Shown: piece after piece, positions 2,745 through 26,835 of the stretch
How the letters are laid out: every line of letters begins with the position of its first letter
Numbering within the stretch: the first letter of the stretch is position 1
DNA from: Archaeoglobi archaeon
Lineage (GTDB): Archaea; Halobacteriota; Archaeoglobi; Archaeoglobales; Archaeoglobaceae
NCBI GenBank assembly: GCA_029259455.1
Contig: JAPDIT010000079.1
Location: 1 to 32,974 of the forward strand
Direction: 5' to 3'
DNA: 32,974 bases
Translations under genes and position numbers: made by a program
The notes under the pieces: model-generated
The model's input: the letters and a program-made list of their open reading frames with translations, nothing else
Database searches by the model: none
What the model was told of the DNA's origin: nothing

Positions 2745-2806
2745 CGAGGAATGTTGAATGTGGGTAAAAATTACTTTTCCTTCCAAAAGCAATCCGGAGC
2801 AACAAC

Positions 2807-2812
2807 TTTATA
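2807..2812 (+). promoter_or_regulatory. Putative TATA box for the first moeA
   Basis: TTTATA about 25 bp upstream of the ATG at 2835, consistent with a leaderless archaeal transcript. Confidence 0.4.
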
Positions 2813-2834
2813 CCGTTGTGCACGACCATGCATA

Positions 2835-4079
2835 ATGGTTAGGGAAAAGGGTTTCTGGAAAAGGGAGAGGGTTGGTGGGGCCCTCAACAGTTTGCTTGGA
2901 AAGATTAAGGTGCTTGGTACTGAATATGTTAACGTTTACAACCTCAACGGCCGTGTTTTGGCCGAAGATATTGTTGCAGGCTTTGACATTCCGCGATTTG
3001 ACAGGGCGGCGATGGATGGTTACGCTGTAAGGGCTGAGGACACGTTTGGCGCCTCCATCAACAACCCAATCATGCTCGAGCTTGCTGGCAGTGTGGAGAT
3101 TGGAGAGACGCCTGAGGTAAAGGTGGGTCAAGGGAAAGCTGTGAAGATAATGACTGGAGCGATGATGCCCGAAGGAGCCAACGCGGTCGTCATGCTTGAG
3201 CACACAAGGGTGAATGGCGACTTCATTGAAGTCTTGAAGGCTGTGACACCAATGAAAAACGTTTCAAGAAGAGGAGAGGATATAAAAGAGGGCGAGGTTG
3301 TCCTGAGAAGGGGAGAGATTCTCCAGCCTCAGGATGCTGGGGTTATTGCATCTCTGGGGATTGAGAGAGTCAGGGTTTACCGGAAACCGAGAGTGGCTGT
3401 CATCACTACCGGAAATGAACTTGTAGAGATTGGTGAAGCAGTTGAGGGAGCGAAAATATACAACTCCAACAATCCGATGATATGCAACGCCCTCCTTGAG
3501 TTTGGATTTGAAGCGATTTCAATGGGGATAGCGAGAGATTCAACTGAAGATATACGGGATAAAGTCAGTAAAGCGCTAAGGTTTGATGCGGTTGTGATAA
3601 CAGGAGGAACTTCTGTCGGCTCCAAGGACCTCGTTCCTGAAGTTATTGAAGAGATGGGAGAGGTTGTATTTCACGGCGTTTCAATGAAGCCCGGGATGCC
3701 AACTGCAGCCGGTGTTGTTGATGGAAAGCCTGTTTTCATGCTCCCGGGCTCTCCGGCAGCAGCTTTACTTGGATTTTACACCTTCGCTGTTCCAGCTCTC
3801 TACAGGATGATGAACGTGAAAATTGTTGCAAGGAAGTGGAGCAGACAGAGAGGAATCCTGCAGGGAAGAATTCCGTCAGAGATTGGTGTGAGAGGAAACG
3901 TGAGAGTTTTCTGGGAAGACGGGAAGGTTTACCCGATAAGGATCTCGGGTTCGGGAGTTCTCAGCTCTTTCGTAAGAGCGAATGCCTTGCTTGTCGTGCC
4001 CGAGGAGAGGGAGGGCTACGAGGAGGGTGAGGAGGTAGAGGTTACGCTTTTGAGGGATGTAACAGAGGTGTTCGAATGA
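2835..4079 (+). CDS. moeA: Molybdopterin molybdenumtransferase MoeA
   Basis: DRAAMDGYAVRAEDT, GEDIKEGEVVLRRG, PRVAVITTGNELVE, GGTSVGSKD and MLPGSPAAALLGF motifs. Start moved to the internal ATG at 2835 (MVREKGFW). Confidence 0.9.
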   Translation: MVREKGFWKRERVGGALNSLLGKIKVLGTEYVNVYNLNGRVLAEDIVAGFDIPRFDRAAMDGYAVRAEDTFGASINNPIMLELAGSVEIGETPEVKVGQGKAVKIMTGAMMPEGANAVVMLEHTRVNGDFIEVLKAVTPMKNVSRRGEDIKEGEVVLRRGEILQPQDAGVIASLGIERVRVYRKPRVAVITTGNELVEIGEAVEGAKIYNSNNPMICNALLEFGFEAISMGIARDSTEDIRDKVSKALRFDAVVITGGTSVGSKDLVPEVIEEMGEVVFHGVSMKPGMPTAAGVVDGKPVFMLPGSPAAALLGFYTFAVPALYRMMNVKIVARKWSRQRGILQGRIPSEIGVRGNVRVFWEDGKVYPIRISGSGVLSSFVRANALLVVPEEREGYEEGEEVEVTLLRDVTEVFE

Positions 4080-6040
4080 GGAAGGTTTTCAGAGATGTTG
4101 TAACAATTGACGAAGCCCGAAATCTGCTTTTCAACCACTTCACCCCAAAAAGAGCCGTTGAGACCGTTCCGCTTCACCTCGCTGTGGGGAGAGTCCTGGC
4201 AAAGGATGTTTACGCTCTCACCGACGTCCCACCTTTCGACAGAGCAACAATGGACGGCTACGCTGTCAGGGCTGAAGACACATTCACTGCCGAGGAAGAC
4301 AACCCAGTTATTTTGAAAGTCACAGGAGTGATTGAGGCTGGAAAAAAACCAGAAATTGAGGTTAATAGAGGAGAGGCTGCTGAAATAGCCACAGGAGCCA
4401 TGATGCCGAAGGGTGCAAACGCTGTGGTAATGGTAGAGTACACAAGGAAGAGGAGGGATGAGATTGAGGTATTCAAGCCAGTCTCTCCTGGAGAGAATGT
4501 AATGTATGCTGGAAGCGACATAATGGCGGGAGAGCTGATAGCCAGAGAGGGTTCGAAGCTGACACACAGAGAAATCGGTGTTATGGCTGCATGCGGGATA
4601 AAAGAGGTTGAGGTTTACAGGAAGCCAAGAGTTGCAGTAATCTCAACAGGAAATGAGCTGGTTAGCCCAGGAGAGAAGCTCGTGGAGGGAAAAATATACG
4701 ACGTCAACTCCTACAGCCTAGCTGCAGCTGTTGAGGAGAATGGCGGGGAAGCGATTTTAATTGGCATTGCGAGAGATGATGAAGCGGAGATGCGCAGAAT
4801 GATTGACAAAGCTCTCAGAGAGGCTGACATTGTTATGACAAGTGGGAGCACTTCTGCGGGAGCCGGGGATGTGATGTACCGCATTCTGGATGAGTTCAAT
4901 CCGGGTGTAATAGTTCACGGCATCGCTATAAAGCCCGGAAAGCCAGCCATCATAGCGGTGAGTGACTCAAAACCAATTTTTGGGTTGCCGGGATATCCGA
5001 CCTCTGCCATGACAGTTTTTGAGGTTATGGTAGCGCCGGTAATAAGGGAAATGGCCGGAATTTCGGAAAGTGAGATGACGAGGCTAAAAGCAAGGCTCGC
5101 TTTGAAGGTTTTCTCGGCAGAGGGAAGGAGAGAGTTTCTTCCGGTAAACGTTGTGGAGGGTGCTGAGGGTTACTCAGCCTATCCTGTGAGCGGCTCATAC
5201 AGCGGAGCTGTTACCGCCTTTGCCTTCACAGACGGCTTTGTTGAGATTCCCGAAAACGTTGTCATGCTCGAAGAAGGGGAAGAGGTTGAGATTAGGCTCT
5301 TCAGCCAGCTCAGACCTGCGGATTTGATGATAATAGGGAGCCACTGCGTTGGTGTGGACATTCTTCTGTCAATTCTGCGGGAAAAGAAGCCTTACATGAG
5401 CAAGGTTATAAACGTCGGCTCTACAGGTGGGATTCTTGCCGTAAAGAGGGGTGAGGCTGATATTGCCGGCACTCACCTGCTTGACGAGAGTGGAGTTTAC
5501 AACGAGCCGATTATAAGAAAATACGGTCTAAGGAACGTGCTGCTGGTCAAGGGTTACTTAAGGGAGCAGGGGTTGATAGTTGCAAGAGGTAATCCCAAGA
5601 GAATTCGGGGGTTTGAGGACTTGCTGAGGGAGGATGTGACCTTCATCAATCGCAACCGGGGAAGTGGGACGAGGATTCTGACAGACATGTATCTCAAGGA
5701 AGTTGCTGAAAAGAGGGGTGTGAGCTTTCAGGAACTCATTGCTTCAATCAAAGGCTATACAGTTGAGGCGAAAACTCACACTTCCGTTGCAGTTGCGGTG
5801 GCAAGCGGGAAGGCTGACGTTGGAGTTGGAATAAAGAGCGTCGCGGTGAACTATGGCCTGGATTTCATACCGCTAAGAAGCGAGGAGTACGATTTCCTTA
5901 TAAGGAAAGGCAGGATGGAAAAGGAAGCTGTGAGGGACTTTCTGGATTGTCTGACTTCGGAGGAGTTTGCCAGCAGGCTTCAGAAAGTTGATGGTCTGGA
6001 AGTCTATGATAGAACCGGAGAAGTTGTGGAGATCGAGTGA
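4076..6040 (+). CDS. MoeA fused to a C-terminal periplasmic-binding-protein-like (COG1910-type) domain
   Basis: Residues ~1-400 carry MoeA motifs (DRATMDGYAVRAEDT, STGNELVSPGE, SGSTSAGAGD, GLPGYPTSAMT). Residues ~420-654 read as a PBP-like domain (IIGSHCVGVDILLSIL...INRNRGSGTRILTDMYL...ASGKADVGVGIKSVA). Confidence 0.88.
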   Translation: MRKVFRDVVTIDEARNLLFNHFTPKRAVETVPLHLAVGRVLAKDVYALTDVPPFDRATMDGYAVRAEDTFTAEEDNPVILKVTGVIEAGKKPEIEVNRGEAAEIATGAMMPKGANAVVMVEYTRKRRDEIEVFKPVSPGENVMYAGSDIMAGELIAREGSKLTHREIGVMAACGIKEVEVYRKPRVAVISTGNELVSPGEKLVEGKIYDVNSYSLAAAVEENGGEAILIGIARDDEAEMRRMIDKALREADIVMTSGSTSAGAGDVMYRILDEFNPGVIVHGIAIKPGKPAIIAVSDSKPIFGLPGYPTSAMTVFEVMVAPVIREMAGISESEMTRLKARLALKVFSAEGRREFLPVNVVEGAEGYSAYPVSGSYSGAVTAFAFTDGFVEIPENVVMLEEGEEVEIRLFSQLRPADLMIIGSHCVGVDILLSILREKKPYMSKVINVGSTGGILAVKRGEADIAGTHLLDESGVYNEPIIRKYGLRNVLLVKGYLREQGLIVARGNPKRIRGFEDLLREDVTFINRNRGSGTRILTDMYLKEVAEKRGVSFQELIASIKGYTVEAKTHTSVAVAVASGKADVGVGIKSVAVNYGLDFIPLRSEEYDFLIRKGRMEKEAVRDFLDCLTSEEFASRLQKVDGLEVYDRTGEVVEIE

Positions 6041-6140: not shown

Positions 6141-8036
6141 ATGAAGGAGCTGCTAGAAAAGTTAGCTAAAGCAGTTGATGCAGGAGATGCGGAAAATGCA
6201 AAAAAGCTTGCTAAGGAGGCAATTGATGCAGGTGTAGAACCGTTGGAGATTATCGAATGGTTAATCAAAGGAATGGATATCGTCTCTGAAAAATACGAGA
6301 AAGGTGAGTATTTCATACCTGATCTGCTAATTGCCGCTGAAGCGTTTTATGCTGCCCTTGATGTAATCAAACCGCTCACCAAAGCCGCGCCTAAAAAAGT
6401 GGGCAAAGTAGTAATAGGTGTTGTAGAGGGGGACATCCACGATATAGGCAAAAACTTAGTAAAGCTCCAGTTGATAGCGAAGGGTTTTGATGTAATTGAC
6501 CTCGGAAGAGATGTCCCGCTAGAGGAATTCGTCAAGGCTGCAAAAGAACATAAGGCCGACATAGTTGCGATGTCTACACTTATGACGACTACTATGCCAG
6601 GAATGGAAGTTGTAATAGAGCGACTAAAGGAAGAAGGGATTAGAGATAACGTGAGGGTAATTGTCGGTGGTGCACCTGTAAGCGAGGAGTTTGCCAAAAG
6701 CATAGGAGCGGATGCATACAAACCAAATGCAACTGAAGGCGCGAAATGGTGCGTTGAGGCTGTGAAAACATTACCACCACCTGAAGAGAGGTGGGTAACA
6801 CCGCTCATCGAATCAAAAGCCCTTGAATACCGCAGAGAAATTGCTAAACGACCACCAAAAGTAGGGGTTGACATCGGTCGCCTTACAGCCGAGAAAATCA
6901 TGCAAGAGGTGGAGAAAGGAGTTGTACCAAAGAAAGCCGAGACTATGACACACGCAGAAAGAGTGCTGTCAGCAGTCGCAGATATGAAAGTTGACAGACT
7001 CCCAGTTTATCCAATAGCCTGTGCAGTTTTGAGAAAATTCTTACCGTGTACCTACAGAGAGTTCTGCACGGATCCAGAGAAGTACGCAGAGGTTATGGCT
7101 GTTGCTGCAAAGTATCTGGACTTCGATTTTGCAGTCGGCTTTTGGGACTTAAGCGTAACAGCTTCAGATCTTGGAGCGGGAGTGAGATTTCCCGAAGAGA
7201 ATACCCCAGCCGCAGAAGAACATTTGGAGGAGTATGAAAAAATTGAGGTTCCCGAAGTTAAACCGGGTACGCGTGCGTATGCATTGATACAGGCAAGTAA
7301 AAAGGCCAGAGAGAGGCTTAGAGAGTATAACATGCCATTTCTCGGTTTCATAGAGGGGCCGCTGTTAACTCTAACACAGCTAATGGGAACCGAGAGAGTG
7401 TTGGAAGACATGAAGAATAATCCCCGTGTAGTACACAAAGCTCTGGAGAAGACTACTGAATACTGCTGCGAAGTGACCAAGAAGTTCTTCGAAGAGGATG
7501 CGTGTGAAATGCTTTGCGTAGATTACCTCTGGTCCAATGATGTGATTATAGACTCGGACATGTACTGGGAATTCGAGGGGAAATACGTTGTGAACAAGCA
7601 TCTTCAGACATTCAAGCAATATGGGCAGCCTCTAATAGTCCACAACTGTGCAGATGCACCACACTACGAAATTCAGATAGGAAAATTCGAAGCTTTGGCT
7701 TTCAGTTACTGCTACTACCCGCACCAGAGGGAGAAAGGTTCTAAGAATTATGCAGATCTGATACCCAAATGGGCTGACAACTGTGTCCTTGTAGGAGAAC
7801 TCATGCCCTACAAGTTCCTCGATAACTCTGCTGAGGGTTTGACAAGAATTGAGAGGGAGACAAAGGAGTTGCTTGAGGGAGTGCTAAATGCATTGAAGGA
7901 GAGTGGCCACCAGTCGCGCTACATAATATCAACAGGGTGTGAAGTTCCACCAAATGGCCCCTTAGACACGGTAAAGAAGATGATAGACGTCGTTAAAGAA
8001 GTGGGGCCAGAACTGCAGAAAAAGATAATCGGGTAA
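6141..8036 (+). CDS. Corrinoid protein / UroD-type methyltransferase fusion (MtsD/F/H-like architecture)
   Basis: N-terminal MtaC/MtbC-like cap and B12-binding motif EGDIHDIGKNLV. C-terminal MtaA/MtbA-like UroD domain starting MTHAERVLSAVADMKVDRLPVYP, with a candidate Zn ligand set HNC...GCE. Confidence 0.9.
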   Translation: MKELLEKLAKAVDAGDAENAKKLAKEAIDAGVEPLEIIEWLIKGMDIVSEKYEKGEYFIPDLLIAAEAFYAALDVIKPLTKAAPKKVGKVVIGVVEGDIHDIGKNLVKLQLIAKGFDVIDLGRDVPLEEFVKAAKEHKADIVAMSTLMTTTMPGMEVVIERLKEEGIRDNVRVIVGGAPVSEEFAKSIGADAYKPNATEGAKWCVEAVKTLPPPEERWVTPLIESKALEYRREIAKRPPKVGVDIGRLTAEKIMQEVEKGVVPKKAETMTHAERVLSAVADMKVDRLPVYPIACAVLRKFLPCTYREFCTDPEKYAEVMAVAAKYLDFDFAVGFWDLSVTASDLGAGVRFPEENTPAAEEHLEEYEKIEVPEVKPGTRAYALIQASKKARERLREYNMPFLGFIEGPLLTLTQLMGTERVLEDMKNNPRVVHKALEKTTEYCCEVTKKFFEEDACEMLCVDYLWSNDVIIDSDMYWEFEGKYVVNKHLQTFKQYGQPLIVHNCADAPHYEIQIGKFEALAFSYCYYPHQREKGSKNYADLIPKWADNCVLVGELMPYKFLDNSAEGLTRIERETKELLEGVLNALKESGHQSRYIISTGCEVPPNGPLDTVKKMIDVVKEVGPELQKKIIG

Positions 8037-8044
8037 TTTTCTAA

Positions 8045-9586
8045 ATGATTGCAAATATCGACCATAGACTGCTTGAAAGGCTCCAATTAGAGGAGGCTTT
8101 CCTTGCTGAAGTCGAAAGTGTGGCAAGTGAGATTAGATCCATTATAAAGCCCTCATTTGGCCCTCAGGGTAGATTTAAGTTGATCATTAATCCTGCAGGC
8201 GATTCTTACCTAACAAAAAAAGGTAAGAACATAATCAGAGAAAGCAACTTCCTACACCCTGTAGCAACAATATTGGAGGGTCTTGCCAAGGCTCTGGATT
8301 GTGAGTGCGGAGATGGAGTGAAAACAGCACTAATGATTTCGTGCAAACTTCTTGAAAATGGTATAGAGCTAATCAGACGTGGGATACATCCAAAAATTAT
8401 CATAGAAGGCTACAAGCAAGCGTTAAACAAATCTTATGAAATTCTTGAGTATCTCTCTAAGAGGGTTGGTAAGAGGGAAGAGGATCACCTGACCAAGGTA
8501 GCCATCACAGAGCTGATAAATGGAAACCTAAGTGAAAGTGATGCTGCTAAGCTCTCAAGCTGCATCGTTAGAGAAGTTAAAAGAATTTATCGAGATGAGC
8601 ATAACTTGGTGGATCTAAATAAAATTAAGACTGTCAAAGCAAAAGGTGCGGGGGAGGCAGCTTTTACTGACGGACTGATAATCAGCGAGCGGCCTTACCG
8701 GGTTGATGCTCCGAAAGTGGTTAAAAATGCCAAGGTGGCGGTTCTGAGTTCAGAAATAAAAATTAAAAAAGTTTCAAATTCAAAAAAGTCTGTAATAAGC
8801 TCGGATCCGGAATTCTCAAAAGAATACGAGAGCTGGAAAAGAAACAAGTTGTATGTAGTGTTTGAGAAAATAACGGACACTGGAGCAAACGTTGTGGTCT
8901 GTGGAGGAGATATAGATCCAGTTGTAGAATTCTTACTTACTAAAAACAACGTTTACGTGCTAAAGAAAATCAAAAAAAGAGACTTAGAGTTGATATCTCA
9001 GGTAACAGGAGCAAAAATTACTGTAGTCGAGGATTTAAGACCCGAAGACTTGGGGTTTGCCGAGCGTGTAGAGTTGATTAAAATAAGCGACGAATACATG
9101 ACGCTCGTTAGAGGATGTGAAGAAGAAATTAGCACATTGGTCATAAAAGGTTCTTCAAAGCAAACTACCGACAGAATCGAAGAGGCTGTGAATAGCGCAA
9201 TCAACTCGGTGGCATTTGTCTTGGCATATAGTAAGGTAGTTCCAGGTGGAGGAGCAACTGAGACCGAAATAGCTTTAGCACTGAGAGAATACGCAACCAC
9301 ATTGGATGACAAAAAAAGCTTGGCTGTGGATGCAGCTGCAGATGCATTCAAAGAAGTGCCAAAAACGTTAGCTGAGAATTCGGGAAGGGATGCTTTAGAA
9401 GTTCTATCCGATTTGATGAGTGCTCACGTTAAAGGCAAAATTTTTGCTCATATTGATGTAAACGGAAAGCTGAATACAGATGAAGATGTAATTGAACCCT
9501 TCTACGTGAAAGCCCAAGCAGTGGTTAGCGCATTTGAGGTTGCGCACCTTCTTTTAAATGTAGATGCAATAGCGCTGAAGAAGTGA
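8045..9586 (+). CDS. Divergent group II chaperonin (thermosome/TCP-1 family) paralog
   Basis: Aligns by eye along its length with thermosome: KPSFGPQGRFKLI, CGDGVKTALMISCKLL, RGIHPKIIIEGYKQAL, VPGGGATETEIALALREYA, VPKTLAENSGRDALEVLSDL, VIEPFYVKAQAVVSAFEVAHLLLNVD. Canonical GDGTTT and NDGAT motifs are altered. Confidence 0.9.
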   Translation: MIANIDHRLLERLQLEEAFLAEVESVASEIRSIIKPSFGPQGRFKLIINPAGDSYLTKKGKNIIRESNFLHPVATILEGLAKALDCECGDGVKTALMISCKLLENGIELIRRGIHPKIIIEGYKQALNKSYEILEYLSKRVGKREEDHLTKVAITELINGNLSESDAAKLSSCIVREVKRIYRDEHNLVDLNKIKTVKAKGAGEAAFTDGLIISERPYRVDAPKVVKNAKVAVLSSEIKIKKVSNSKKSVISSDPEFSKEYESWKRNKLYVVFEKITDTGANVVVCGGDIDPVVEFLLTKNNVYVLKKIKKRDLELISQVTGAKITVVEDLRPEDLGFAERVELIKISDEYMTLVRGCEEEISTLVIKGSSKQTTDRIEEAVNSAINSVAFVLAYSKVVPGGGATETEIALALREYATTLDDKKSLAVDAAADAFKEVPKTLAENSGRDALEVLSDLMSAHVKGKIFAHIDVNGKLNTDEDVIEPFYVKAQAVVSAFEVAHLLLNVDAIALKK

Positions 9587-9588
9587 AC

Positions 9589-10131
9589 TCAGTCAATCCC
9601 CACCAGAATCGTGCCCAAGGATTTATCATCAGCGGGCACATTCAGCAGTTCTTTTAGGTATAAGTCTGCAGGGGCAGAGGGGCTTGCAGCAACAGCCCCA
9701 TACCTGGACAGTTCTGGAATTTCAAGAGGGAGTATGCAAACTGTAAACTCTCCCCTCTTTTCTTTCATCAGCGTTAGTTTATCTCTGTAAAAAACCAAGT
9801 TGCCTATCACAAGTTCACCCCTCGCTTTCATCTCCTTTAGTTCCCTTTCATCATAGCAGTCTTCACCAACCACCTCACCCTCACACAAGATTTTCAGAAG
9901 CTTTTTCGGCCATACGAAGTTTACATCTGTGGCGCAGACAAAAACATGCCTCTTTCTCAACACTTCCTTTAGCCCCAAATTCTGCCCCCTACCCAATCCC
10001 ATTAATATCTTCCTTTCCGCTTCCCTTTCCAATACCTCGACCTTCCGTTTTTCTTCATCTCCCAGCAGAGCTACCTTTATTATGCCTCTAACCCCTTCAA
10101 GTATCTTCCCAAACTCTTCAATATTAACCAT
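9589..10131 (-). CDS. Uncharacterised 180-aa protein adjoining the ramA-like gene
   Basis: Complete ORF abutting the 3' end of the ramA-like gene, with convergent neighbour 2 bp away. Contains CATDVNFVWPKKLLK and AASPSAPADLYLKELL. Family not recognised. Confidence 0.7.
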   Translation of the reverse strand: MVNIEEFGKILEGVRGIIKVALLGDEEKRKVEVLEREAERKILMGLGRGQNLGLKEVLRKRHVFVCATDVNFVWPKKLLKILCEGEVVGEDCYDERELKEMKARGELVIGNLVFYRDKLTLMKEKRGEFTVCILPLEIPELSRYGAVAASPSAPADLYLKELLNVPADDKSLGTILVGID

Positions 10132-11811
10132 CTAACCACCTTTATCGCAGCACGAACATTTGCTGCCGTGATGACAAGAAACTGCCTCATTCAAAAGCTG
10201 CTTGAAGTCAAGGACTTTCTCTGAACAAACTTTCTGACATCTCAGACAAGACATCCCGTTACAGAGATCTGTCCTGATTGATATTTGGTAAGCTGAACCT
10301 TTCCTCATAATTTTAAGCGCTCTCTCTGGACATTCCTTTTCACATTTTCTACATCCAGTACAGCCTTCAATTTCCGTGACCAGTGGCATACCCACGTCCC
10401 AAACTACACGAAGTCCCTTTTTGCCTATAACACCTATATCCTTCTCAAACAGTTTGTGAACTTCAGCGTGAGTTACTTCTTTCGATAGCGATGACCGAAA
10501 TCCGTACTTTTTCAGCCAAGAGTCGTATCTCTCTATTGGCATTCCCTGCAGCCAGTACGACAACTCAAGAAGGTAAATCTGTTCGAAGATTTTCGACGTT
10601 GCAAACATGATGTGAGTAGCCCTTAATTCATTGACAATTGTCTGAAGTTTATCCAGCATTTCTGGATTCGCAACAAGTTCTCGAGCCATTGCTAAAGAGG
10701 TATTTCCTACTTGGACAATTTTACTAACGCTACATGGAACCAGTCCAACTTTCTGAGCTTTGTGAGCGTCCACATAGAATCCGGATGCTCCAGCCATATA
10801 CATAGTCCCGACTTCATCAATTGATATCCCTGCCTCTTCTGCTAAGGTAATGTGTCCTGCCCTAATAGCCCCTATTGCTTTTCCGGCTTCGATCAAGTCG
10901 TTTTCAGTGAAGTAAAGACTGTCCTGAAGATAAATTCTTCTATCGGGCGTGTTTATTCTCGGTAGTGATATTAAGCCGCTTCTTATGCCCTCTTCCAAGA
11001 TTGCAATAACACCCGTTCCCGTTACGCCAACTGCTTTACCATGCATTGGACCCGAATTCAGTAAACTTCCGGATCTCGGATCTACAATGTCTCCGGGCTG
11101 AGCGACCAGTTCGTTATCCAAAACGTAACATCTCCAACCCCCATTTTCAGCATTAACATCAGATATTGCTCCAGAAGTCGCAAGCATACCTCTCTCTATA
11201 TGCTGCCCCTCTATGGCGGATCCGGCGGCAGCTGATCCCGTGTATATCTCATCGCCAACCTTCAACGCCATCTCCGCGTTAGTACCGTAATCCGTAGCTA
11301 AGGCTATTCCTTTCTCTTCCAAGAAGCCTCCTTTAACCATCATCGCCAAAGCGTCAGCACCAACTTCATGCTTAATTGCCGGAGGAACGAGAACTTCCGC
11401 ACTCGATCTTACGGCCAATCCCAGTTTCCACGCCTCCACAACTGCAGCATCTCGCTTTGGTGGTCTAACACCCTCTTTCTCTAATTTACGCTTTCCTGCC
11501 CACGCTAGGTCTCTAATCTCAATATTCTGAAAGATTGAGAGCTGGCATGGATTGCCGCACACCGCTATTCTTTCCACCCGACTTAGCTCGATGTCCAGTT
11601 GTTTTAGCAATTTGTTTATTGCCGCTACAACTATGAAATGAGCTGTATCTCTTCCGACCTCCAACGCAAAGTGTAGATGATCCATAACATTGGCGCCCGG
11701 TAACGGATGGCGGGCGGTAACGGCAGTAGAGACTACTTCACCAGTCTTTAAATCTACGGCCTGAGCTCTGAAACCACTAGTTCCCAAATCTAAAGCAATA
11801 CCATATTCCAT
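10132..11811 (-). CDS. RamA-like ATP-dependent reductive activator of corrinoid proteins (ASKHA fold + two 4Fe-4S clusters)
   Basis: MEYGIALDLGTSGFRAQAVDLKTG start, ATDYGTNAEMAL, YMAGASGFYVDAHKAQKVGLVP. C-terminal CTGCRKCEKECP and CNGMSCLRCQKVC Fe-S motifs. Confidence 0.9.
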   Translation of the reverse strand: MEYGIALDLGTSGFRAQAVDLKTGEVVSTAVTARHPLPGANVMDHLHFALEVGRDTAHFIVVAAINKLLKQLDIELSRVERIAVCGNPCQLSIFQNIEIRDLAWAGKRKLEKEGVRPPKRDAAVVEAWKLGLAVRSSAEVLVPPAIKHEVGADALAMMVKGGFLEEKGIALATDYGTNAEMALKVGDEIYTGSAAAGSAIEGQHIERGMLATSGAISDVNAENGGWRCYVLDNELVAQPGDIVDPRSGSLLNSGPMHGKAVGVTGTGVIAILEEGIRSGLISLPRINTPDRRIYLQDSLYFTENDLIEAGKAIGAIRAGHITLAEEAGISIDEVGTMYMAGASGFYVDAHKAQKVGLVPCSVSKIVQVGNTSLAMARELVANPEMLDKLQTIVNELRATHIMFATSKIFEQIYLLELSYWLQGMPIERYDSWLKKYGFRSSLSKEVTHAEVHKLFEKDIGVIGKKGLRVVWDVGMPLVTEIEGCTGCRKCEKECPERALKIMRKGSAYQISIRTDLCNGMSCLRCQKVCSEKVLDFKQLLNEAVSCHHGSKCSCCDKGG

Positions 11812-18748: not shown

Positions 18749-19690
18749 TCAGTTTTCGGCTTCAGGATGCAAATACGAAGCAACTACTTCAACAGCCTCA
18801 GCAAGCCTGTATGACGGTCGGCTTATGATGTCCGCATCGACAACGTAAACTCTGCCCTCTTTAACGGCTTTAATTCCGCTAAGTCTCTCGTCACTCACAA
18901 CCCACTCGTAAACCACATCTCTCTCTCCTCCCATCCCGGAACCGCTGCTGACCAGTATCACGTCAGGATTTGCCGCTATCAGATCTTCAACGCTCACAGT
19001 TCTCCATCCTTCAAAGTTAAAGACGTTCTCGCCTCCAGCAAGCCTTATTACTTCATCGATGAACGTATTTTTGCCACTAACCCATATTGGATCGTACCAC
19101 AGGATGTGGGCAACTCTCACCCTCGTTTTATCCCTCACTTTCTCCCTGACTCTTTCAATCTTCTCAAGCATCTCGTTGACAAGCTTCGTGGCGTTCTCCT
19201 TCTCTCCAGTCGCCACTCCAATCAGAACGATGTCCTTCATCACATCTTCAACAGTTTTCGGGTCAAAGGCTACAACATTCAACCCCATCCTTCTGAGCGT
19301 TTCTATATTCTCAATACCGTTTCCGTAGGAAGCTACGACGAGGTCTGGATTAAGGGAGAATATCTTTTCTATGTTTACCGTGGTGTAACCGCCAATGCTC
19401 ACAAGTTCCCCCCTCTCCTTCTTCTCGACAACCTCTGGTGGATAATTGCAGTAATCCGTCACCCCCACAACTCTATCCCCTGCACCTATCGCAAAAAGAA
19501 TCTCCGTGTTGCTGGGAGCAAGAGAAACTATTCTTTGCGGATTTCCTTCCGAAATATAGTAGCCTGTGTCGTCAACAGGTGTGGCGTTGAAGATTTCCGT
19601 CAGGTTAAATGATGCTTCCTCCTCTGGAGGTTTGGATGTGCAGAGGGGTAGGAGGATAGCGATTAAAAGAAATACGGCAAGCTTCCTCAT
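18749..19690 (-). CDS. btuF: Cobalamin ABC transporter substrate-binding lipoprotein
   Basis: Lipobox-like LLPLCTS; PQRIVSLAPSNTEILFAIGAGDRVVGVTDYCNYPPEV; cobalamin-type class III PBP. Downstream of btuC, btuD and cbiZ. Confidence 0.88.
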   Translation of the reverse strand: MRKLAVFLLIAILLPLCTSKPPEEEASFNLTEIFNATPVDDTGYYISEGNPQRIVSLAPSNTEILFAIGAGDRVVGVTDYCNYPPEVVEKKERGELVSIGGYTTVNIEKIFSLNPDLVVASYGNGIENIETLRRMGLNVVAFDPKTVEDVMKDIVLIGVATGEKENATKLVNEMLEKIERVREKVRDKTRVRVAHILWYDPIWVSGKNTFIDEVIRLAGGENVFNFEGWRTVSVEDLIAANPDVILVSSGSGMGGERDVVYEWVVSDERLSGIKAVKEGRVYVVDADIISRPSYRLAEAVEVVASYLHPEAEN

Positions 19691-22119
19691 ACTCTCCCCC
19701 TCAAAAGTGCTGCAGTTAAAGTTAATGCTACAACAACCGCAACTGAAGAGAAGCCCGGAGTGACTGGACTTTCGGGTGTAGCCGTTGTTACGGTTGCTGC
19801 TGAAGCGGTTGCTGTAACGGTTGCGGTAGCCGTCATGGTAGTTATGGTTGCAGAGGGGGTAACACTAACTGTAGCGAGAGAGGCATTCACCTTGATGGGA
19901 TGCGGCTCTCCGAGCAGTGCCACGATTGCGGAGACCGTCATGTAGCCCGGATTGGATGTTTGGTACTTAGTATATCTAAAATAACCCTCTTCTGCCTGTA
20001 GGCTGAGGAGGTGGTCGACTACACTTGTGTTGTTTCTCTTCCATTCAGCTGGATTTATGCCTGCTGCAACAAGTGCTTGTATGGTCCAGGAATCGCTGCC
20101 GGCATTGCTTGCCGAGTTTCCGAAGTATCTCATCCCCCCGTCATTGTTCTGGCCTGTTTTTAGGTAATCCAGCGCTTTCTTGATTACAGGCGAATCTTTT
20201 GGTTCTCCAGCAGCTATCAATGCCTGTATTGCAGCGGCAGTATCGTCAAAGTCGCTCTCCTCTCCCACGCTCCATGAAAATCCTCCGTCAGCATTTTGGT
20301 GCGATTTTAGCCATTCCGCCGATATGGACACATTTTCACCTACAGATGCTAAGGCCATTATTCCCCAGATGGTTTTGTACATGAAATCACCTATCTGACC
20401 GTTCTCCTTTACGTAGGACTTCAGCTTGCTCACGAGGTCAACTCCTGCAAAGTTTCTGGGATTCTCATCTGCGTAAACCAGAGCAAGTATAGTTCTAGCG
20501 TAGTCTTCAGCCCCCATGGTGTCCATCTCGCCTCTCAGCCTCTCCCTTATGAAATCAACCGGACTTTTACCGTTCTTAACCCACTCGTGGGGGTCTTCAC
20601 CTGCCGCAACTATGGCCATGATCGCCCATGCCGTAGCGGAAATGCTGCTGCTCTCCCCCAGATTTGCAAACCCACCGTCCTCATTTTGAATGGTTTTGAG
20701 CCATTCAAGGGCTCTCTGTATTCTCTCATCCGTCGCATTGAGAGGGAAGTCGTCCCACTTGATTGCGATGGCAAAAACGCTGAATGAATTAGTCTGGGCT
20801 GAGAAGTAGAGGTATTTATCATCCTCTCCTGTCTTTTCTGTTGGCAGCTCAAACCAGCTCTCGTTGTACTTCATTAAGACTACTTCTTTGCCCTCTGCAA
20901 CATCCTTCGAAACTCTGAAGTCGATTTTTGCACTCACCGACTCATTTGCCTCAATCTCGAACCACCTGTAAAAAGTCCCGTAAATAACTCCCGGAGGTAT
21001 GTGGCACTCGGAAATGGCAATCTCAGCAGGTTTTTCCGACTGGAAGGTTAAAGCAGTAATGGAAAAGTTCGCCACAACCTCTTCGGATGGTATTACCTTG
21101 GTCTTCCCGGGCTGGATTGCAATTACCTGCTCTGTGGAGTTCAGCTTAATCCCTGCCTTGCTGACGTTTACGGTCTTCGTAACGGTGTCAGACAGTCCGT
21201 CATTGTCGAAGACTGTGAGAGAGACCTCATACTCGCCCGGAGCTGTGTAGGTGTGGGTTACGGTCATCCCCCTCCCGCTTTTTCCATCTCCAAAGTTCCA
21301 GATGTAATCCGTTATCTGCCCATCATCGACCGATTTGGAGGCGTTGAACACAACCTCCTCTCCGGCAGTTGGATTGCTCGGAGAGAAAGTGAAGTCGGCA
21401 AAAGGCGGAACTTTTGACGGCCAGACCATGCTAACGGTGATTTCGTAATTATCCCCTATGTCTATGTATATCCTGTAGGGTGAATTTTCGGGAGTGTCGC
21501 TCATGCTGCGGGAGAAGTACCAGATTATCCTGTCTCCGGGACTTACTCTGAAATCGGTTGCCGCAACGCCGGGCAAAGGCTCATCGGGATAGTTGACCCA
21601 GTACATCCAGCCTGAAGTGTCGCCGATGTCACCTTTGCACAGATTCTTCACGCACTTGACGAAAATCCCCCAGTCCGTGAGTTCGGGGGTGATTGTAAAG
21701 TACAGGATTTCGCCAGCCTTTTTCAGCGCTCCGTATGCCGTTCTCCACTCCACATTCTTGCCGAGAACCTCAAAGGTTCCGTAGGGGAGAACGTGCTGAC
21801 TGCTCCCTCCTCCCCCACCTCCTCCTCCACCACTGCTGCAGGTTTTGATCTGGATGGTTTTGCTAACCTTCTCATCTCCAGCGATGGCAGTTATGAGAAG
21901 CTCTCCTTTAACTCTCGGCTTGAAGTATGCAGGTAAAGATGGCGAGGCTTCGGAAAAAATCGGGGTTCCCGAGTTCATTCTGAAAATTATTATTGCATTC
22001 CCGTCCGTCGTCACAGTGACCTTCTCTCCAACACATCCTCCGCTGACCGAGAGGGTCAAAGCAGAGGCCAAGGGAAGCAGGAAAATTAAGGTAATGATTG
22101 CAAATATTCCGCGAAGCAT
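19687..22119 (-). CDS. Secreted transcobalamin-like protein: DUF4430 + PKD + PGF-pre-PGF + prenyltransferase/terpene-cyclase-like alpha/alpha repeats + PGF-CTERM
   Basis: Signal peptide; Gly9 linker; SGWMYWVNYPDEPLPGVAATDFRVSPGDRIIWYFS (DUF4430); FADFTFSPSNPTAGEEVVFNASKSVDDGQITDYIWNFGDGKS (PKD); repeats ALEWLKTIQNEDGGFANL / EWLKSHQNADGGFSWS / DYLKTGQNNDGGMRYF; C-terminus TPGFSSVAVVVALTLTAALLRGRV. Confidence 0.85.
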   Translation of the reverse strand: MLRGIFAIITLIFLLPLASALTLSVSGGCVGEKVTVTTDGNAIIIFRMNSGTPIFSEASPSLPAYFKPRVKGELLITAIAGDEKVSKTIQIKTCSSGGGGGGGGGSSQHVLPYGTFEVLGKNVEWRTAYGALKKAGEILYFTITPELTDWGIFVKCVKNLCKGDIGDTSGWMYWVNYPDEPLPGVAATDFRVSPGDRIIWYFSRSMSDTPENSPYRIYIDIGDNYEITVSMVWPSKVPPFADFTFSPSNPTAGEEVVFNASKSVDDGQITDYIWNFGDGKSGRGMTVTHTYTAPGEYEVSLTVFDNDGLSDTVTKTVNVSKAGIKLNSTEQVIAIQPGKTKVIPSEEVVANFSITALTFQSEKPAEIAISECHIPPGVIYGTFYRWFEIEANESVSAKIDFRVSKDVAEGKEVVLMKYNESWFELPTEKTGEDDKYLYFSAQTNSFSVFAIAIKWDDFPLNATDERIQRALEWLKTIQNEDGGFANLGESSSISATAWAIMAIVAAGEDPHEWVKNGKSPVDFIRERLRGEMDTMGAEDYARTILALVYADENPRNFAGVDLVSKLKSYVKENGQIGDFMYKTIWGIMALASVGENVSISAEWLKSHQNADGGFSWSVGEESDFDDTAAAIQALIAAGEPKDSPVIKKALDYLKTGQNNDGGMRYFGNSASNAGSDSWTIQALVAAGINPAEWKRNNTSVVDHLLSLQAEEGYFRYTKYQTSNPGYMTVSAIVALLGEPHPIKVNASLATVSVTPSATITTMTATATVTATASAATVTTATPESPVTPGFSSVAVVVALTLTAALLRGRV

Positions 22120-24026
22120 CAGCTCACCTCGCAGCTTACTGGGCCATAGATGTGGATGGGATTTCCGGGATACTCGCTAAACCTGTAAACTCCTGCGTAG
22201 AGGTTATATCTTCCAGTACCGGCGAGCTGTGGAATGTGGATAAGCACCGGAACTCTCAGCTCCTCTCCAGCATTAAGACGGAAGGTTGAGATGCCCGCTA
22301 TTGCCTCTCCCTCACTACTTACTCCGCTCACGACCACGACATACCAATCAGTTGTAGTTGCCGAAACGTTCACCCATGCAGTTGCGTTTCCTCCCCTCTC
22401 TCCATCTGAAACTGTCAGCGATTTTATCTCCACGGGTTTCAAGATGTTAATGTTGATTTTAATCACATACTCTGAGTCTGCGGGAGTTTGAGGCCAGCAA
22501 CCGTAGTACCATATTAGTGTATCGTTATCTTTAAGCAAGTAGCTGTCAGCCCCCACCTGAGGCATGTCCTCCTCTGGATAGTTGACCCAGTACATCCAGC
22601 CGCACCATCCCTCAGACGCAATTCCATTGATAGACTCAACATACACCCCATAGGTGGAACTATTTACAACTACATCGAAACTACCCAATTCACTCGCATT
22701 TATTAGAGCGTATAGGGCAGAAATTCCGCTAATCTCTTTTTGAGATCCATCTTTCAGACTAATTGTAACATTTTCAGGTGCTAGAGTTACAGAACCTTCC
22801 CACATAAGCGAGAAATTTCCAAACGCATAGACATTGCCATTATCTGCACCAACGAAAAGTTTTCCTCCCCATACAAAAGGCGAAGACATACACCACTGTT
22901 TCAAATCATAACTCCACGCTAAACTTCCATTTTCGAGATAAACTGCATAAAGTGTTCCATGTTCAGTGTTCGTTGTGAAAAAGACATAATCTCCTGCTAT
23001 GATTGGCGAACCTCCAACATCCCCGTTCAACCCATCATTTCTGTCAAACTCCCATACTAATTCATGATCACTTACGCGATAGCACAGAACAGAATCGTTG
23101 TTGTCTAGAGTCCATCCTTGATCCCCTTTAGTTCCAACGACAACGTAACCATTTCCGACTGCAGGTGTTATTCTCCATACCCCATTTCTTCCGGGAAGTG
23201 CTACATTCCAAGATAAATTTTCGGGATCAGTCAAGTTTACTGCATAGAGTTTGCACTCACCCGAACTGTCAGTAGTTGTGAAGAATGCAAAACCTTCTCC
23301 AATAGCAATACCTCCCACTATTGCTCCATCTACGGGATATTTCCATAGCACATTTCCAGTACTTTCGTTAATTACCACAAACTCGTGCTGACCACTTTCA
23401 TTTCCTGCAAAGAATATTTTGCCATTATAAGCTGAGGGAGACGTATAATAGCTAACTACATCACCATCCCACACTACTCTCTTATTTCCCTCAAAATCAA
23501 CAGCATAAAGAGTGCCAGTTGTCGAGGCTAGGATATAAACCGTATTGTTGTAGACCAGAGGGTGCGAGTCTACATGCCACCAACCGTCTATATATTCATT
23601 AACTACTACTGCCCACCTGACAGAGAGTTCGTTTTCATCTAAAGCGTAAAGCCAACTTTGTTGCTCATTTGAGATGTTAACTGCATGTACAAACACCACC
23701 CCATCTGAAATTGCGGGAGCAGTTCTACCATAAAAAACTCCAGTCAGATTGGCCACTTCTGTTCCGTTTGAAGCATAAAGCTTGAAAATACCAAGCTCAC
23801 CGTTATTCGGACTCATTGAAGGCACAGTCATGACATAAACAAAACTATTTGTGGCTACGATCGGGCTCTCAATGAAGTTAGAAGTTAGCTTTTGCATCCA
23901 GATTAAATCTTTGCCATCTACCGCAGTAAAATTCCCCGTCCTCTGTCCATCCCCGTGAAACGTGGTGGCGTTAGCTGTTGCAGTAAGCATGACCAGCAGG
24001 AAGGAAATCAAGACAATTCTCCTCAT
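22119..24026 (-). CDS. Secreted PQQ-like beta-propeller protein with C-terminal DUF4430 domain
   Basis: Signal peptide; propeller blades such as GTLYAVDFEGNKRVVWDG, GTLYAVYLENGSLAWSYDL and GNVYAFGNFSLMWEG; then EGWCGWMYWVNYPEEDMPQVGADSYLLKDNDTLIWYYG. Confidence 0.85.
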   Translation of the reverse strand: MRRIVLISFLLVMLTATANATTFHGDGQRTGNFTAVDGKDLIWMQKLTSNFIESPIVATNSFVYVMTVPSMSPNNGELGIFKLYASNGTEVANLTGVFYGRTAPAISDGVVFVHAVNISNEQQSWLYALDENELSVRWAVVVNEYIDGWWHVDSHPLVYNNTVYILASTTGTLYAVDFEGNKRVVWDGDVVSYYTSPSAYNGKIFFAGNESGQHEFVVINESTGNVLWKYPVDGAIVGGIAIGEGFAFFTTTDSSGECKLYAVNLTDPENLSWNVALPGRNGVWRITPAVGNGYVVVGTKGDQGWTLDNNDSVLCYRVSDHELVWEFDRNDGLNGDVGGSPIIAGDYVFFTTNTEHGTLYAVYLENGSLAWSYDLKQWCMSSPFVWGGKLFVGADNGNVYAFGNFSLMWEGSVTLAPENVTISLKDGSQKEISGISALYALINASELGSFDVVVNSSTYGVYVESINGIASEGWCGWMYWVNYPEEDMPQVGADSYLLKDNDTLIWYYGCWPQTPADSEYVIKININILKPVEIKSLTVSDGERGGNATAWVNVSATTTDWYVVVVSGVSSEGEAIAGISTFRLNAGEELRVPVLIHIPQLAGTGRYNLYAGVYRFSEYPGNPIHIYGPVSCEVS

Positions 24027-24111
24027 GCTACAGCAATCCGAATTTCAGTTAATAAAGTTTTCCAAATTATTTGATGCAATATAAAATATATTTGATTTGC
24101 TACCACAGCGC

Positions 24112-24678
24112 CTACCACCTTGCCAGACTCTCCTTAACAGCCTCTTCGACGCATTTCCACAGCTTCCGCCCCACTTCGCTCGCTGGCCCTGAGTACCTGT
24201 GGTATCTGCCTTTCTGAGTGCAGAGCACGACAACAGCATCGGTGTTCGTGCCAGTGAAGTTGTGCCCGGCTTCAAGCAAAGCTTTCGTTTTTGCTTCAGT
24301 TGTGGTTATGATCGCGTTTAGCATTGCTGCCCTGCTCATCCTGCACTCAAAAACAGCTATGACGTTTATCGTCCCCACCTTCTCGTTGGGGTTCAGCACC
24401 CCTGCTGTGGCAAATACCGTCACCTCTCCGCAGCTTCTCACGCTCAGGTTGTCCATCGGCACAGAAGTTAGCAGGCCAAAATACGATTTCAGCCCGTAGG
24501 CTCTCGCAACCTTCCTGAGGTATTCAGCAGCCTCCATCGAGTAAAACTCGTCTGAGACGGTGTGGTTGAAGGCATGCTTAACTCTCCCCCACCCCCCAAG
24601 CAGACCTGTGCTCACACCGAAAAAGTCTCCTGAAACGATCAAAGTATTACCATCAACCCAGTAGTTTTCGTACGGCAT
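24112..24678 (-). CDS. cbiZ: Adenosylcobinamide amidohydrolase CbiZ
   Basis: VTVFATAGVLNPNEKVGTINVIAVFECRMSRAAMLNAIITTTEAKTKALLEAGHNFTGTNTDAVVV is characteristic of CbiZ. Confidence 0.9.
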   Translation of the reverse strand: MPYENYWVDGNTLIVSGDFFGVSTGLLGGWGRVKHAFNHTVSDEFYSMEAAEYLRKVARAYGLKSYFGLLTSVPMDNLSVRSCGEVTVFATAGVLNPNEKVGTINVIAVFECRMSRAAMLNAIITTTEAKTKALLEAGHNFTGTNTDAVVVLCTQKGRYHRYSGPASEVGRKLWKCVEEAVKESLARW

Positions 24679-25870
24679 CCAGAACCTCCTTTTCCCTTTT
24701 CACAACCACGGCTCTTTCCAGAATCTCCCTGTAAAGCTTCTCTGCCTCTTTCCCGACGAAATTTCTTTCCTTGAAGGGAGTTTTATCTACCACAACAAGC
24801 TTGTTAAGTTTTGCAGCATACATCGCCGCCTGCAAGTTCTTGAAATTCCCCATTCCAAAGCTGAGGTCTGCGAGAACAACAGCATCGCTATTCTCGATAA
24901 CCTCAATATTTTTCCTGTGAGAGGAATCACTTATCGGAGAAAAAGGGGCTTCGTCAATAACCTCTCCGAGCTCAACAGCTACTTCCCAATCAGAATCTAG
25001 GACGTTAACAACACCTGCTGAGACTTTGTAGCCAGCATCCCTGAGCATGTGGAGAATCTCCCTACCACTCCCACCACCGCAGATGACGTGAACCCTCTTC
25101 AAACCATTCGGAACCTTCAGCTTTGGAGCAATGTAGACACCCCTTCCATACCTTCTGACAACCACATCAGCCCCGAAAACGTTCCTTATGCTCTCCTCAT
25201 TTATGACATCCTCCGGCCTGCCAGCATACACAACTTTTCCATCCTTAACCATCAAAATGCGGGTGGCGAATGATGAGGCGAGGTTTATGTCGTGAATCGC
25301 GACTATTGCTGCTTTCCCCTCCTCAACCTTGCTCTTTACAATCTCCATTATCTCAATCTGCGCGGCAATGTCGAGGTGCGCTGTGGGCTCATCTAGCAGC
25401 ATAACCTCAGGCTGCTGGGCGAACACCCTCGCAAGCATGACTTTCTGCCTCTCCCCACCGCTCAGCTCCGAGAAAATTCTGTCGGCCATGTTCTCCATCC
25501 CAACTTCCTTCAACGCCTCCATGGCTGCTCTGTAATCATCTTCCCCCGGCCTCTTCAACCCGCTCAAATATGGAGTTCTGCCGAGCATGACGATATCAAT
25601 GACCCTGAGGTTCGCTAACGGTGTATCCTGAGGAAGGAAGCCGAGCTTTCTTGCAGCCTCTTCGACACTTCCAATTTCTTTGCCATCGAGCAAAACCACC
25701 CCTCTCAGAGGTTTCAGCACTCCGAATATCGTTCTAAGCATCGTTGTCTTACCGCTTCCATTCGGGCCAAGCAGAGCCAGCAGTTCTCCTTCCCCAACCT
25801 CGAAGGTGACATCCTTCAGCACATCCCTGCTTCCGAGAGTTACCGTTACCCCTTTAACCACAAGCCTCAT
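24653..25870 (-). CDS. btuD: Cobalamin ABC transporter ATPase with a ~155-aa C-terminal Rossmann-like extension
   Basis: [51 protein letters not shown]. Extension begins around KVPNGLKRVHVICGGGSGREILHMLRDAGYKVSAGVVN. Confidence 0.9.
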   Translation of the reverse strand: MRLVVKGVTVTLGSRDVLKDVTFEVGEGELLALLGPNGSGKTTMLRTIFGVLKPLRGVVLLDGKEIGSVEEAARKLGFLPQDTPLANLRVIDIVMLGRTPYLSGLKRPGEDDYRAAMEALKEVGMENMADRIFSELSGGERQKVMLARVFAQQPEVMLLDEPTAHLDIAAQIEIMEIVKSKVEEGKAAIVAIHDINLASSFATRILMVKDGKVVYAGRPEDVINEESIRNVFGADVVVRRYGRGVYIAPKLKVPNGLKRVHVICGGGSGREILHMLRDAGYKVSAGVVNVLDSDWEVAVELGEVIDEAPFSPISDSSHRKNIEVIENSDAVVLADLSFGMGNFKNLQAAMYAAKLNKLVVVDKTPFKERNFVGKEAEKLYREILERAVVVKREKEVLDAVRKLLG

Positions 25871-26835
25871 ACCGACCTCCTCATCAGCAGGTAAAGGAAG
25901 AACGGTCCACCGAGCATTGCCGTTATCGCTCCAATCGGCAACTCCCCGCTCGTTGAAATCCTCGCCACAACATCTATGACCGGCATGAACGCTGTGGAGA
26001 GGAGTATTGTGGATGGGAGCAGCTTCTGATGCTCCTCTCCAACCAGAATCCTCATCGTGTGAGGGACTATTATCCCAACAAAACCAATTACACCGCTGAT
26101 TGCCACGGTTGTTGATGTTAAGAGAGCCACAACAGCTATCAGAGACTTCCTGAATCTTTCAACGTTTATACCCACAGCCGCAGCGTGCTCATCACCCAGC
26201 AGCAGAGCGTTGAGGTTCCATGAAGTGAATAGAAGGTAAGCAAGCCCGGCGATTGTTATAGGCAATGCGAAAAGAACTTCCTCGAAGAAGGGGTTCGAGA
26301 AGCTTCCCATCAGCCAGAAAACAACCTTGTGCATGCTCTGAGCTGAGAAGTAAATCAGAACGGAAGTCAGACCGGAAAAGAAGCTCGCTATGGCAACACC
26401 AGCCAGAAGGATTGCATATGTCTGGTCGCGAAACTTGGATGATGAGCCTATCAGATAGACAACGTAGGCAGTAAGAAGGGCGGAGAAGAAGGCAAGTCCT
26501 ATTCTTGAGTAAATCGTCTCCATGGAGAGAGCTACTGACAAGGCAGCGCCTACACTCGCCCCGCTCGCCACGCCGAGAACGTATGGTTCTGCGAGAGGGT
26601 TTCTGAATAAGGCCTGCATTGCAGTACCTGATGCTGAAAGCGAGGCTCCTGCGATTATCGCCACCAAATATCTCGGCAGCCTGTAGTCGAGAACGATTTT
26701 CATCGCAGTTTCATCAGCATTTCCTGAAATAACGTCAAAAAGATAACCGTAACCCCCGCTACCAACTCCGAGAGAGAGAATCAAGGCCAGAATGTTGAGT
26801 GCCAGCAGGATTACTATAGCACTGCCGAATCTCAC
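25867..26835 (-). CDS. btuC: Cobalamin ABC transporter permease (FecCD family)
   Basis: RLPRYLVAIIAGASLSASGTAMQALFRNPLAEPYVLGVASGASVGAAL; GFVGIIVPHTMRILVGEEHQKLLPSTILLSTAFM. Confidence 0.9.
   Translation of the reverse strand: MRFGSAIVILLALNILALILSLGVGSGGYGYLFDVISGNADETAMKIVLDYRLPRYLVAIIAGASLSASGTAMQALFRNPLAEPYVLGVASGASVGAALSVALSMETIYSRIGLAFFSALLTAYVVYLIGSSSKFRDQTYAILLAGVAIASFFSGLTSVLIYFSAQSMHKVVFWLMGSFSNPFFEEVLFALPITIAGLAYLLFTSWNLNALLLGDEHAAAVGINVERFRKSLIAVVALLTSTTVAISGVIGFVGIIVPHTMRILVGEEHQKLLPSTILLSTAFMPVIDVVARISTSGELPIGAITAMLGGPFFLYLLMRRSV

Follow-up and report, generated by a model that had tools for sequence, protein, structure and literature searches.

The window analyzed here, a stretch of 32,974 nucleotides from the metagenome-assembled genome (MAG) of an Archaeoglobi archaeon, carries a cluster in which a divergent chaperonin follows a corrinoid methyltransferase and is itself followed, on the opposite strand, by a small conserved protein and a RamA-type activase. 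The genes of the cluster, the ATP-site residues of the chaperonin and the more distant corrinoid genes are as follows:

6141..8036, + strand: fused corrinoid and UroD-type methyltransferase (MtsD/MtsF/CmtA-like), 631 aa, the proposed client (from Pfam and identities)
8045..9586, + strand: divergent group II chaperonin, 513 aa (from PF00118, the AlphaFold2 model and its TM-score to Mm-cpn)
8219..8221, + strand: K59 in place of the catalytic Asp64 of Thermococcus KS-1, TNDGAT loop (mapped by alignment to 1q3r)
8306..8326, + strand: CGDGVKT, with the Mg-binding D90 retained and K93 in place of T98 of GDGTTT (motif comparison and residue mapping)
8525..8527, + strand: N161 in place of the nucleotide-sensing Lys165 (residue mapping)
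9194..9196, + strand: S384 in place of the catalytic hinge Asp393 of T. KS-1, D386 in Mm-cpn (residue mapping)
9589..10131, − strand: conserved protein, 180 aa, tail-to-tail with the chaperonin and between it and RamA (62–64% identical in JdFR-41)
10132..11811, − strand: RamA-type corrinoid reductive activase, 559 aa (TIGR04270, 785.6 bits against a cut-off of 500; RACo_C_ter)
18749..26835, − strand: corrinoid salvage and uptake genes on the same contig, 7 kb beyond ramA (supporting context)

The methyltransferase combines Pfam B12-binding_2, B12-binding and URO-D domains in one chain and is 77% identical to its counterpart in Archaeoglobus sp. JdFR-41 and 53 and 50% identical to the MtsD-position and MtsF-position proteins of Methanosarcina acetivorans, respectively. 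Its methyl acceptor may differ from that of the methyl-sulfide:CoM case, since no McrA was found in JdFR-41 or in the window's own MAG, which is 55% complete. The 180-aa protein occupies the same place in the JdFR-41 cluster, has no match in Pfam, NCBIfam or PDB sequences, and yields a poor AlphaFold model (pLDDT 59). The salvage and uptake region encodes a BtuF-type Peripla_BP_2 protein, DUF4430 proteins, CbiZ, an ABC ATPase and a FecCD permease. Directly upstream of the methyltransferase cluster, at 2751–6040, lies a tandem MoeA pair, the second member of which is fused to a PBP-like domain.

The chaperonin reading frame agrees exactly with the earlier note in coordinates, frame and length, and so does its spacing: 8 nt separate the methyltransferase stop, which ends at 8036, from the start codon at 8045. 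The product had been described as resembling group II chaperonins along its length, and this is borne out by a Pfam search, in which PF00118 (TCP-1/cpn60) spans residues 30–510 (393 bits, E 2e-117), and by the modeling and thermosome alignment that the note had proposed. An AlphaFold2 model built with 27 relatives has the three-domain chaperonin fold (pLDDT 85.3, pTM 0.80), and the closest solved structure is Mm-cpn 5w79 (TM 0.90, 33% identity). A putative built-in lid (helical protrusion) keeps its insertion length in the alignment to 1q3r, but residues 243–251 are modeled at pLDDT below 50. As previously noted, the protein is devoid of a Gly/Met-rich tail and ends in ...VDAIALKK. A GroEL-type (group I) identity is rejected by scores of 47–75 bits against curated GroEL cut-offs of 352–582. 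Between the window and JdFR-41 genes, codon positions 1, 2 and 3 differ at 34, 23 and 59%, the pattern of purifying selection, and the JdFR-41 chaperonin has lost the same ATP-site residues in an intact frame; these two observations reject chance, drift and a decaying pseudogene. The window ORF is a real, full-length group II chaperonin.

The ATP site, mapped via alignment to the Thermococcus KS-1 thermosome (1q3r), is heavily remodeled. The altered motifs GDGVKT, TKKGKN and GPQGRFK all read as first described; S384 at the hinge Asp and N161 at the K165 position had been overlooked. Lys at the T98 position is common to the corrinoid-linked relatives. Compared with archaeal thermosomes (Mm-cpn, Thermococcus KS-1, T. 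acidophilum), the window protein shares the full-length fold, the lid-length insertion and the nucleotide-motif residues GDG, GPxG and GGG, whereas it is missing D64, D393, K165 and the C-terminal tail and scores below the cut-off of every NCBIfam thermosome model (NF041082, 360.7 vs. 450 bits; NF041083, 365.2 vs. 400; TIGR02339, 364.1 vs. 671). The Mm-cpn D386A variant binds ATP without hydrolyzing it and retains little function in E. coli (PMC5019054). The same hinge Asp, matched by family numbering, is absent from the window protein, yet here the loss is natural, combined with that of a second Asp, and maintained by selection. Because both catalytic Asps are replaced and D386A behaves as it does, the window chaperonin is predicted to be hydrolysis-dead, and it may still bind ATP. 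The earlier proposal of weak or no ATPase activity thus stands, as a prediction from K59, S384 and N161, for the window protein and falls for the whole family, since the Methanosarcinaceae relatives (members tabulated) retain both catalytic Asps; within the clade, Archaeoglobi form a variant branch. Since Methanosarcinaceae retain the complete ATPase site and Archaeoglobi do not, hydrolysis would seem either not to be the shared essential feature or to be supplied by other subunits.

Used as a single query against 85,488 species genomes, the window chaperonin gave no match; an alignment of five relatives, searched against the same genomes, recovered 34 loci. In genome searches, the nearest relative is that of JdFR-41 (G013; 55–57% identity), in a cluster that matches the window in its fused methyltransferase, chaperonin, small protein and RamA, with 12 bp separating the methyltransferase from the chaperonin; this locus contains Ns, and several of the genomes compared are MAGs. 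The Methanosarcinaceae relatives are 33–37% identical. In a tree of 45 rows, the chaperonins of the window and of JdFR-41 group with the Methanosarcinaceae copies at 100/100, and housekeeping thermosomes fall on the other side (100/98). A long branch, a CGDG[TV]K motif and the missing Gly/Met tail are the hallmarks of this group, which forms a chaperonin clade of its own and accompanies fused corrinoid/UroD methyltransferases across genomes.

JdFR-41 carries two ordinary thermosome genes besides its clade chaperonin; in the window's own MAG, 55% complete, this chaperonin alone was detected. The protein could be a non-hydrolyzing, client-specifying subunit of a mixed thermosome, which co-assembles with housekeeping alpha and beta subunits into rings that prefer the methyltransferase; its length, its fold and the retained GPxG, GDG and GGG residues suit a normal subunit. 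However, the clade has a long branch and motifs of its own, and its genes sit by the client rather than by thermosome genes, so we consider a mixed ring unlikely, albeit worth keeping in mind.

The searches also returned sequences outside this clade. Motif-pattern matches in five genomes (G019, G637, G676, G677, G679) proved not to be chaperonins. Two related archaea with two McrA genes each (G036, G037) encode further divergent chaperonins (L033 891–2429, L034 4051–5184, L035 3–1229), which neighbor a C-terminal piece of UbiD together with NicO, a pair of genes resembling molybdenum hydroxylases, and an ABC ATPase. The L033 protein, in G036, has both TKKG (as TKKGEK) and CGDGTK, and its branch is too long for placement. 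Long divergent chaperonins of 600–621 aa with SSNAYS in place of the TNDG loop occur in two related genomes (L043 279–2141, L044 2–1801), and two genomes of one family carry thermosome genes with one in-frame TAG each (G040:C3:30171-31676, G049:C61:21573-23078), where TAG recoding is possible.

The association with corrinoid methyltransferases, which the earlier note had drawn from position only, is upheld by conserved neighborhoods and co-occurrence in Archaeoglobi and Methanosarcinaceae and, where other corrinoid enzymes are the partners, in Lokiarchaeota. In the survey for fused corrinoid/UroD methyltransferases that the note had suggested, which covers 113 Methanosarcinaceae genomes, 47 carry the clade chaperonin and 52 the fused methyltransferase; 46 genomes have both, one the chaperonin only, six the methyltransferase only, and 60 neither (Fisher p 8e-24, a value that overstates independence because the chaperonin copies are related). 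Nearly all chaperonin copies in this family (57/60) lie 0.2–3.1 kb from a fused methyltransferase, all on the same strand and 52 with the methyltransferase upstream; for the remaining three, no methyltransferase was found on the contig. The neighborhood is thus conserved elsewhere, in these 57 copies and in JdFR-41, and the link survived. In several of the six methyltransferase-only genomes, the coordinates place the methyltransferase near a contig end that cuts off its downstream side; G150, also among the six, has a CGDGTK motif on another contig. Among the 34 loci recovered across species genomes, 30 have a methyltransferase within 6 kb; of the other four, three are cut by contig ends (L057, L067, L082) and one (L081) is a Lokiarchaeota cluster. 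In the class Archaeoglobi, the fused methyltransferase occurs in two of 59 genomes, and in those genomes of the class that were searched for the chaperonin, close relatives occur in none but these two. G004, presumably A. fulgidus, a species with an unfused corrinoid methyltransferase system, has two ordinary thermosomes only and no clade chaperonin, which counts against a dedicated client.

These data make a strong case, from sequence comparison, for a link between the chaperonin and corrinoid methyltransferases. No report of a link between a chaperonin or Hsp60 and these enzymes was found in the literature; passing mention in subscription mts papers is possible. The link rests mainly on gene position, and operon linkage can mean co-regulation rather than a physical client relation: a thermosome copy might have been caught in a methylotrophy operon through stress co-regulation, its position carrying no client meaning and the window copy drifting. 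We find this highly improbable, given that the pairing spans about ten Methanosarcinaceae genera in several gene orders and two Archaeoglobi genera and recurs in Lokiarchaeota with different corrinoid enzymes, that the window copy is under purifying selection, and that in three Methanosarcinaceae genomes the coordinates place housekeeping thermosome copies more than 100 kb from the methyltransferase.

In five Lokiarchaeota genomes (L081, L132, L133, L134, L135), a related chaperonin starts 36–116 bp after a gene for a RACo-type activator, with MttB and/or corrinoid-protein genes nearby in four of the five loci. In each of the five proteins, Lys occupies the position of D64 and D393 is gone. 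At two more Asgard loci (L136, L141), the chaperonin next to MttB, a corrinoid protein and RACo is altered to a lesser degree. In a tree with a GroEL outgroup, the Lokiarchaeota and Asgard copies join the euryarchaeal clade at 93/98.6 on long branches, which is suggestive, though not proof, of a common origin of the corrinoid-linked chaperonins in the two groups. The catalytic Asps were probably lost independently in the Archaeoglobi and Lokiarchaeota lineages, because Methanosarcinaceae and the Asgard copy L123 retain them.

Activators are frequent neighbors beyond Lokiarchaeota as well: in many Methanosarcinaceae clusters the chaperonin lies directly behind a hydantoinase-like ASKHA gene. 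These positions would suit a scaffold or regulator of reductive activation that does no folding and holds the corrinoid protein together with RamA or, in Methanosarcinaceae, with ASKHA, and a scaffold would tolerate ATPase loss most easily. The complete ATPase site of the Methanosarcinaceae copies, needless in a pure scaffold, and the position of the window's RamA on the opposite strand argue against such a role, leaving it rather improbable.

The genome that we take to be M. acetivorans C2A (G132) contains two clade chaperonins, behind mtsD- and mtsF-type genes at 1.019 and 5.412 Mb. The two proteins (L139 8825–10429, L140 9800–11404) are 97% identical and the adjoining Mts-type proteins 55%, as if one chaperonin type served both MtsD- and MtsF-type proteins; the disparity in identity also resembles gene conversion. 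The third Mts-type gene of this genome has no chaperonin within 196 kb, another point against a dedicated client. The second cluster consists of a regulator, the methyltransferase, the chaperonin and a CobW-like protein, then corrinoid/methyltransferase genes, and matches the published order msrC-mtsF-mtaCB2 (PMC11619418). Of the contiguous clusters regulated when HdrED is depleted, MA4384 (mtsF)–MA4394 is the longest (PMC11619418), and the clade chaperonin falls within this interval. M. acetivorans has five group II chaperonin subunits, as compared to three in M. mazei and M. barkeri, and their substrate spectra have been left open (PMC6420498). The extra subunits, METAC4 and METAC5, go back to Maeder et al. 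(2005), "Novel chaperonins in a prokaryote", as cited in PMC5220055 and PMC6420498. We infer that they are the two clade members, because the genome holds exactly two and these are 97% identical to each other. Like the window protein, they belong to the clade (100/100), have the CGDG[TV]KT motif, lack the Gly/Met tail, and sit in an mts-type cluster; the window protein is only 35% identical to them, and both M. acetivorans proteins still have the two catalytic Asps.

On balance, we favor, with somewhat more confidence than doubt, a client-dedicated chaperonin that would fold corrinoid methyltransferases or load them with cobamide and that, in Archaeoglobi, would do so without ATP hydrolysis. 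A corrinoid protein is the most likely client because the conserved companion of the gene is a corrinoid enzyme or its activator, and specifically the client would be the corrinoid methyltransferase encoded by the adjoining gene. The chaperonin would bind newly made or unfolded corrinoid protein and offer it a shielded chamber or platform where the corrinoid domain could close around cobamide; cobalt reduction by RamA or the hydantoinase-like ASKHA activase would follow. The Methanosarcinaceae copies probably run a normal ATP cycle. The window protein may act by ATP binding alone, as a holdase or scaffold, or as a non-hydrolyzing subunit in a ring with ATP-active subunits.

Dedicated chaperones for corrinoid enzymes exist: PceT serves reductive dehalogenases, and its gene, like that of the window protein, is kept beside a corrinoid enzyme. 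PceT is trigger-factor-like and binds the Tat signal peptide, whereas the window protein is a chaperonin. Judging from the chemistry, we prefer cobamide loading over plain folding. In vitro, cobalamin was loaded into another corrinoid protein, MtoC, in refolding solution (PMC8630106), which makes closure of the domain on its cofactor within a chamber a chemically sensible proposal. Relative conservation of the apical, client-binding domain does not exceed that of housekeeping thermosomes (A/E ratio 0.84 vs. 0.85), and the sequence thus offers no independent sign of client specialization.

A broader reading, which we offer as speculation with the odds against it, is that these proteins constitute an ancient archaeal class of client-dedicated, cofactor-insertion chaperonins for corrinoid methyltransferases, in which hydrolysis was lost independently in Archaeoglobi and Lokiarchaeota to leave a cobamide-loading chamber that only binds ATP; the divergent copies beside UbiD and molybdenum-hydroxylase genes may then serve other cofactors.

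Chaperonins are regarded as generalists; in a family that tracks one enzyme class across genomes, nature would provide a one-client system. Two lineages that have naturally lost both catalytic Asps would reveal the capabilities of a chaperonin that does not hydrolyze ATP. The preferred role also suggests a possible answer to an old question: M. acetivorans has two group II subunits more than its relatives, with unknown substrates (PMC6420498), and both of its clade members sit by mtsD- and mtsF-type genes; because this organism is genetically tractable, the idea is directly testable.
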